From contig NZ_CP007055.1 of the NCBI RefSeq assembly GCF_000517625.1, forward strand, positions 1,178,001-1,242,000: a DNA stretch of 64,000 nt. Reading direction: 5' to 3'. Origin of the DNA: Halostagnicola larsenii XH-48 (GTDB lineage: Archaea; Halobacteriota; Halobacteria; Halobacteriales; Natrialbaceae). The notes beneath the pieces were generated by a model. That model was not told the DNA's origin. It ran no database searches and saw only the letters and a program-made list of their open reading frames with translations. Within the stretch, counting starts at the first letter, position 1. Each line of letters starts with the position of its first letter. Both the position numbers and the translations under genes were made by a program. Positions 7,355 to 48,395 of the stretch are shown piece by piece.

Positions 7355-7428
7355 GGGCCGGTAGCTCAGTTAGGCAGAGCGTCTGACTCTTAATCAGACG
7401 GTCGCGTGTTCAAATCGCGCCCGGCCCG
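7355..7428 (+). tRNA. tRNA-Lys (anticodon CTT)
   Basis: Complete cloverleaf of 74 nt without encoded CCA. The acceptor arm is GGGCCGG (7355-7361) with CCGGCCC (7421-7427) and discriminator G7428. The anticodon stem is TCTGA/TCAGA around loop CTCTTAA (7387-7393), giving anticodon CTT for AAG. The T arm has the loop TTCAAAT. No intron is seen. Its 3' half is partly copied twice in the following 300 bases. Confidence 0.97.
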
Positions 7429-7431
7429 CTT
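7406..7431 (+). repeat. tRNA-Lys 3' end, copy A of a direct repeat
   Basis: The last 23 bases of the tRNA plus three flanking bases. The same 26 bases recur exactly at 7567-7592 and a shorter, one-base-altered version at 7689-7709. Repeats of a tRNA 3' end downstream of the gene are the usual footprint (attL/attR) of integrase-type insertion. Confidence 0.8.
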
Positions 7432-7467
7432 TTGCTCCGAGAAATCACTCGAGGAGCAAAGCGGCTA

Positions 7468-7479
7468 GCGCGATTTGAA
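7468..7479 (-). repeat. Inverted copy of the tRNA T-loop segment
   Basis: GCGCGATTTGAA here is the exact reverse complement of 7409-7420 in the tRNA T-arm. Between the two, TTTGCTCC (7431-7438) pairs with GGAGCAAA (7453-7460), so 7409-7479 could fold into a long imperfect hairpin. Confidence 0.7.
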
Positions 7480-7505
7480 TGCAGGGAGGTCGCGCGCAGC
7501 GAGAG

Positions 7506-7526
7506 CGCGGTCGCGATGCGACCGCG
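7506..7526. repeat. Perfect 9-bp hairpin
   Basis: CGCGGTCGC (7506-7514) and GCGACCGCG (7518-7526) are a perfect inverted repeat with loop GAT. It lies between the two copies of the tRNA 3' end and resembles the GC-rich hairpins at 48134-48212. Confidence 0.6.
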
Positions 7527-7566
7527 GTTGCGAACGGCGAAGCCGTGAGCGAGCACGTCCGACCGT

Positions 7567-7592
7567 GTGTTCAAATCGCGCCCGGCCCGCTT
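7567..7592 (+). repeat. tRNA-Lys 3' end, copy B (att-like)
   Basis: Exact copy of 7406-7431, 161 bases downstream, without the rest of the tRNA. Like copy A it is followed by an inverted GCGCGATTTGAA (7634-7645). No integrase gene is seen between or near the copies. Confidence 0.8.
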
Positions 7593-7633
7593 CTCACCGC
7601 GAGCAAATCCGCGAGCGGTGCGTCTCGAAACCG

Positions 7634-7645
7634 GCGCGATTTGAA
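7634..7645 (-). repeat. Second inverted copy of the T-loop segment
   Basis: GCGCGATTTGAA again, reverse complement of the copy B segment TTCAAATCGCGC at 7570-7581, so the direct-plus-inverted arrangement of copy A is repeated with a different spacer. Confidence 0.7.
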
Positions 7646-7688
7646 GTAGACCAGAAAGGCGCAGCGAAGCGAGCATTTTTGGGCGTAG

Positions 7689-7710
7689 TTCACAATCGCG
7701 CCCGGCCCGT
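7689..7710 (+). repeat. tRNA-Lys 3' end, degraded copy C
   Basis: TTCACAATCGCG followed by CCCGGCCCG: the tRNA 3' end with one inserted base. No inverted partner follows. It marks the downstream limit of the array. Confidence 0.6.
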
Positions 7711-48155: not shown

Positions 48156-48181
48156 GAAGCCGTGCGAGGGTGGCGGTGAAC

Positions 48182-48212
48182 GGCGAGGGCAGAACGAAGT
48201 GAAGCCCTCGCC
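48182..48212. repeat. Perfect 9-bp hairpin
   Basis: GGCGAGGGC (48182-48190) and GCCCTCGCC (48204-48212), 13-base loop; second of two hairpins here. Confidence 0.65.
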
Positions 48213-48395
48213 CAGTGAGCGGTGAGCGAAGCGATCCGCGAACGGAGTGAACCGCCGCGGCTGGGGAGGACGAGGCTGCGAAGGTGAGTTGCTGTGGGCG
48301 GGTTTTCAGAAGGTCTTCGTTTCGAACGAACCCGTCGAACCACATCGACTCGAGACGATCGGATCGTCACCGAAGACCGCTCGAGTCCGCGGACG

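Follow-up and report, generated by a model that had tools for sequence, protein, structure and literature searches.

The tRNA-Lys(CTT) gene of Halostagnicola larsenii XH-48 found in the 64,000-nucleotide stretch of DNA analysed here (the window) is followed by an array of two units, each combining a direct copy of the 3' end of the gene with an inverted copy of its T-arm, and this array is one case of a class-wide haloarchaeal feature. We put at about 0.5 the probability that it was built by hairpin units being inserted repeatedly, at the DNA level, into the tRNA T-loop, and conclude that the footprint is that of a class-wide, gene-less, tRNA-proximal unit system and not of lost proviruses. 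The unit may be written as [tRNA 54-73]-H-T'-C, where H stands for the trailer hairpin, T' for the inverted copy of the T-arm and C for an imperfect hairpin core, and the window array runs in the order tRNA - H1 - T'1 - C1 - copy 1 - H2 - T'2 - C2 - copy 2 (Table 1).

Table 1. The tRNA-Lys(CTT) gene and its two-unit array, with positions given in the window.
Feature	Positions	Strand	Evidence and remarks
tRNA-Lys(CTT)	7355..7428 (end 7428/9)	+	T54 at 7409, discriminator N73 at 7428; ARAGORN; Rfam RF00005, 67.9 bits
Unit 1 H, trailer hairpin CTTTTGCTCC...GGAGCAAAG	7429..7467	+	Sequence and fold
Unit 1 T', inverted T-arm copy (GCGCGATTTGAA)	7468..7479	+	Inverted repeats I2/I7
Unit 1 C, imperfect hairpin core, type AGGGAG...CGACCGTG	7480..7569	+	Core type also at orthologous tRNA-Lys loci
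Direct copy 1 of tRNA 54-73, 20/20	7570..7589	+	Within the 26-base identity 7567-7592
Unit 2 H, trailer hairpin, with stem-GA-GC-loop-GC-GA-stem cap at 7601-7614	7590..7632	+	Sequence and cap motif
Unit 2 T', inverted T-arm copy (GGCGCGATTTGAA)	7633..7645	+	Inverted repeats I1/I5
Unit 2 C, imperfect hairpin core, type TAGAC...GGCGTAG	7646..7688	+	The only unit in congener G271 is of this type
Direct copy 2 of tRNA 54-73, T-loop degraded and one base inserted	7689..7709	+	Reads TTCACAATCGCGCCCGGCCCG

The earlier note on this DNA had described a 26-base segment of the tRNA 3' end which recurs exactly 161 bases on, and this was found to be so for GTGTTCAAATCGCGCCCGGCCCGCTT at 7406-7431 and 7567-7592, with no further occurrence in the window; the third, degraded copy and the T-loop sequence inverted after each of the first two copies are also present as described. 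When the window was scanned with tRNA positions 54-73, matches of at least 15/20 besides the tRNA itself were restricted to the two direct copies and the two inverted sites, and a cmscan of the window at Rfam gathering thresholds listed the tRNA alone, with no match to the RtT family. The array region folds better than 100/100 shuffles (z = -5.0). The suggestion that each unit can form a long hairpin may be refined in that each T' is flanked by direct copies on both sides and can therefore pair with either one; in the minimum-free-energy fold the tRNA is undisturbed and T' pairs with the copy downstream of it.

We surveyed the DNA downstream of each of the 43 tRNA genes found in the source genome, and identified a direct copy of the gene's own 3' end behind approximately 25 of them, mostly 70-180 bases on, leaving about 40% of the tRNAs without units. 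The same search of the upstream flanks found no copies apart from places with two tRNA genes in tandem. Six occurrences of the strict palindrome GATTTGAA-N20-50-TTCAAATC are present in this genome, every one just 3' of a tRNA. Across the class Halobacteria, the T'-C-T palindrome is present in 251/292 genomes and 72/77 genera (the reversed control pattern gave 0), and the full T - T' - T layout with its 24 fixed bases in 108/145 class genomes (control zero). ARAGORN placed a tRNA nearby in 27 of the 30 loci fetched from other genera, with the palindrome always on the tRNA 3' side, and haloarchaeal arrays comprise between one and five units behind a tRNA. Outside the class but within the same phylum, the palindrome was seen as single matches in a few genomes, which is chance level. 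The pairing of direct and inverted copies, which had been thought unusual for plain att remnants, is a regular class-wide unit.

The distance between copies has a median of 102 nt in the 215 units first collected, with 86-132 nt spanning the 10th-90th percentile, and an inverted T-arm matching at 9/11 bases or better was found in 183/214 spacers compared with 3/214 shuffled ones. Among 189 units with a recognisable T', the direct copy agrees with its own tRNA at positions 62-73 in 87-99% of cases, and with other tRNAs in 28-74% (the copies were picked at a 15/20 threshold and the identities are somewhat raised by this). This similarity stops sharply at position 73 and has a near-sharp start at 52-54, fading at 52-53, and the repeated block therefore begins in the T-loop (~53/54) and ends with the mature tRNA (73). 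A per-position test of T' found it to be tRNA-specific above chance at 62-64 and not beyond 64. We note that at the tRNA-Arg gene at C1:301397 of the source genome, and likewise in its congener (locus L458), truncated copies of only ~63-73 lie between the tRNA and the full unit, which makes for an unusually short echo.

These arrays turn over. The orthologous tRNA-Lys(CTT) genes of relatives carry from zero to two or three units, with varying H and C types and combinations, so that the case of an array identical in all relatives, under which the earlier note would have been wrong, does not hold; the inserted element which it proposed looking for at this locus was not seen in the relatives compared. 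Between the source genome and its congener G271 the arrays differ at most array-bearing tRNAs, and at five loci (1185355, 1978639, 1964070, 856514 and 648599) comparison by eye found a common distal unit and a different proximal one, with a single counter-case at locus 1822852 where this pattern is reversed. The same polarity is seen within arrays of at least two copies, where the first copy is nearer in sequence to the tRNA than the last in 31/46, the reverse is true of 1 and 14 are tied (p = 1.5e-8). The C cores of adjacent units are unrelated in 41/43 pairs, which indicates that arrays have not grown by tandem duplication and rules out the duplication of existing units for most of them. A long tRNA-Ser array in a ~2.1 Mb haloarchaeal genome (G007:C1:704500-706800), in which two unit types alternate as nearly identical repeats, has likely arisen by tandem duplication of pairs of units. 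For 69/178 cores (13 expected) the nearest relative was found at the same tRNA isotype in another genome, and for 8 (3.7 expected) at a different isotype in the same genome, which represents weak within-genome spread.

Hairpins kept as RNA are expected to show more G:U than A:C mismatches, as is seen in the tRNA acceptor and T stems where the ratio of G:T to A:C is 93:12. RNA-like tolerance of this kind is not found in the T':T pairs (18:22; p = 1.6e-7 against the tRNA stems) or the H stems (13:13), bearing in mind that the units are mutually related and do not provide independent events for this or the following tests, and that transcription-coupled mutation bias could shift these counts. The ratio for whole C cores (60:37) is inflated by fixed flank mismatches, and isolated interior mismatches are too few to tell. 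Structure is nevertheless strand-specific, as the sense strand of the C core folds better than the antisense strand in 170/199 cases with RNA parameters and in 169/199 with DNA parameters (169:30), and a stem-GA-RC-loop-GY-GA-stem cap is found in 60/202 H hairpins in sense compared with 2 in antisense, with the same GA-RC-loop-GY-GA cap in 37/201 and 0 of the C cores, respectively. The R-Y pair of the cap covaries (62 G-C, 36 A-T and 6 other), and the cap is ~100-fold enriched behind tRNAs relative to the remaining source-genome DNA that was fetched. We rejected a K-turn or k-loop (an L7Ae site) in H, since the tandem G:A pairs are closed by two further base pairs (RC/GY) and form a 2x2 internal loop. 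Three GA-RC-GNA-GY-GA motifs also lie within ~60 bases at window positions 48180-48250, remote from tRNAs, and are the only such cluster in the window. DNA-like substitution together with strand-specific structure points to single-stranded DNA of the tRNA-sense strand, which could be exposed by transcription.

Our search for carriers, cargo and integrases bears on the proposal of the earlier note that the locus records repeated integration and loss at one attachment site. Repeated events at one tRNA 3' end are borne out by the block limits, the layered arrays and the differences between relatives; plain remnants of lost elements are not, as we saw no element or cargo and no plasmid or virus match, and the closest integrase is ~190 kb off. 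Integrase matches are absent for ~180 kb on either side of the window array, the array itself had no match in plasmid and phage collections, and three core patterns were absent from 2.9 million viral contigs. A shorter palindrome does match viral and bacterial contigs; given its 16 fixed bases and the huge size of these collections, we take the matches as chance. Copies that enclose cargo or are of intermediate size were not found in 227 tRNA loci, and none of the loci compared held an integrated element. Four far copies were considered as cargo-bearing and rejected, as two are weak matches without a preceding T' core and the other two are only 280-313 bases on. The integrase-linked tRNA at 931133 of the source genome served as a yardstick for att sites, and its 54-73 segment was found elsewhere only as a one-mismatch match at another tRNA. 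This tRNA has no echo array itself, and nearby (G000:C1:902245-930742) two pairs of integrase matches (902245/924528 and 908085/930368) are offset by exactly 22,283 bp, which suggests a tandemly duplicated ~22 kb element ending beside it.

In the explanation we prefer, a new unit would enter as DNA between the tRNA body (to ~53) and the existing 3' end, bringing with it an identical 3' end, so that the tRNA remains whole, and the former 3' end would be pushed downstream to become the direct copy. Repeated insertions would then produce an array in which the oldest and most degraded unit lies farthest from the tRNA. Recognition would probably be of the T'-C-T palindrome, in the form into which the tRNA-sense (non-template) strand folds when single-stranded, and the unit might arrive as a circle or as a target duplication. 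In favour of this explanation we count the own-tRNA specificity of the direct copies, the polarity within arrays and between congeners, the unrelated neighbouring cores, the mismatch counts and the strand-specific structure; insertion rather than gene conversion, and recognition of the hairpin, are what we infer. Several observations argue against insertion. Gene conversion which repairs the nearest copy most could also produce the polarity, and locus 1822852 breaks strict polarity; nearest cores mostly belong to one isotype, with weak spread between isotypes within a genome; T' fits its own tRNA at 62-64 above chance, which would be needless for a ready-made unit; and no enzyme, circle or carrier was found in our searches of integrases, plasmids, phages and viral contigs. 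Our main doubt is that some of the pattern could equally be produced by gene conversion or by errors of replication.

Four other explanations can be weighed against recurrent insertion. It is unlikely, if the least unlikely of the four, that the units would act as functional RNA, being transcribed with the tRNA and providing hairpins for 3' processing, termination or the sponging of tRNA fragments. Such a role would account for the much better fold of the sense strand and the conservation of the tandem G:A and cap motifs, and the RtT of a similar array in Escherichia coli is annotated as an sRNA, but G:U is not in excess over A:C in the T':T and H stems, arrays are lost, gained and swapped between congeners, and a substantial share of tRNAs (~40%) do without them. 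An improbable alternative is target-site duplication by a Cas1/casposase-like or other integrase, in which a small H-T'-C insert would be accompanied by a 20-bp duplication in the manner of CRISPR spacer entry. This would yield own-tRNA copies at any tRNA without the need for a tRNA-specific donor, and leader-proximal growth with a duplicated repeat would match the polarity. The Aciduliprofundum boonei casposase reads TCAAATC of the tRNA T-loop as its target; however, it duplicates the 14-15 bp downstream of this and not the T-loop itself (PMC6614799), whereas the haloarchaeal duplicated segment is 54-73 and there is no fixed spacer length. Moreover, no terminal inverted repeats were seen by eye on H-T'-C among the listed units, and cores track isotype, not genome.

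Less probable again is that the arrays are a by-product of replication and recombination, with template switching at palindromes behind highly transcribed tRNAs and gene conversion in polyploid cells keeping the copies alike. The layout is quasi-palindromic, substitution is DNA-like and T' is adapted to its own tRNA at 62-64, all of which speaks for it, yet template switching would erase mismatches where core types and strand-specific G:A mismatches are kept across genera, and it leaves both the exact ends at 54 and 73 and the unrelated neighbouring units unexplained. The least probable, and disfavoured, is that the copies are remnants of integrative plasmids or viruses whose tyrosine integrases used att sites at the T-loop, with the element lost and the att flanks left. 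The block extends from the T-loop to the end of the gene, as tRNA att sites do; haloarchaeal prophages leave tRNA 3' duplications of 22-43 nt (PMC3119063), and tRNA-targeting tyrosine integrases of the SNJ2, pNOB8 and SSV types (reviewed in PMC8371274) similarly involve an identity block running from inside the tRNA to its 3' end and a tRNA restored afterwards. Against this, a uniform unit with mostly 86-132 nt between copies is seen at ~60% of tRNAs and in 72/77 genera, and random remnants would not be expected to have inverted T-arms so regularly or to share core types between genera; in addition, the 227 tRNA loci lack cargo-bearing or intermediate-size copies, there is no integrase near the window array, and the haloarchaeal sites differ from those of known tyrosine integrases in having ~100 bp units without an element or integrase.

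If recurrent insertion is the true reading, most haloarchaea hold many layered arrays behind their tRNAs which record repeated insertions, and these arrays have so far gone without a name in the open-access papers we searched. In that literature we found prophage-related tRNA duplications and no description of the haloarchaeal arrays. Recurrent insertion would also tie the E. coli tyrT repeats, which are old and lack an explanation, to something widespread, offer many natural replicates for tracing the enzyme, and add a gene-less, cassette-like recombination system with tRNA genes as docking sites. For annotators, we caution that finding a piece of a tRNA 3' end near a haloarchaeal tRNA does not in itself point to a lost provirus.

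Among known systems, the E. coli tyrT/tyrV distal repeats (RtT/RttR sRNA, tpr) come closest. In E. coli K-12 (NC_000913, 1285500-1288500; locus at 1205-1763 of this segment, L465), three direct copies are found behind tRNA-Tyr (tyrV) at a spacing of 178 bp, each repeat carrying the final 19 nt of the tRNA (AATCCTTCCCCCACCACCA), with 22 nt of inverted T-arm lying between copies, and the match is overlain by one to four RtT annotations in 10 sampled strains. Both systems therefore have direct copies of their own tRNA 3' end and an inverted T-arm per repeat. They differ in that E. coli has one locus where a haloarchaeal genome has dozens, in that the E. coli units are ~95% alike (tandem duplication) whereas neighbouring haloarchaeal units are unrelated, and in that the encoded CCA is part of the E. 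coli copy, which begins at ~58 in contrast to the haloarchaeal block of 54-73; RtT also has no sequence homology with the window array at Rfam thresholds.

Integron cassettes end in an attC site, which is an imperfect palindrome: end boxes inverted relative to each other enclose a mismatched spacer and a stem with a loop that varies, and one strand is structurally informative. The end of the haloarchaeal unit has the same elements, with GATTTGAAC/GTTCAAATC as its end boxes, and again the structural information is on one strand and growth is polar, beside a fixed site. In contrast to integrons, this fixed site is a tRNA gene, the units are gene-less, with 86-132 nt between copies and no cargo, and the T-loop GTTCAAATC is not the attC box GTTRRRY. 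A search for integrases in general gave no match near the window array; with no IntI and no genes seen, we do not class the array as an integron. As a wider reading, doubtful but ahead of the four rival explanations above, haloarchaeal tRNA genes may be the fixed site of a cassette-like recombination in which gene-less, attC-like hairpins of folded single-stranded DNA would be captured singly at the T-loop, with E. coli tyrT/RtT as a bacterial example.
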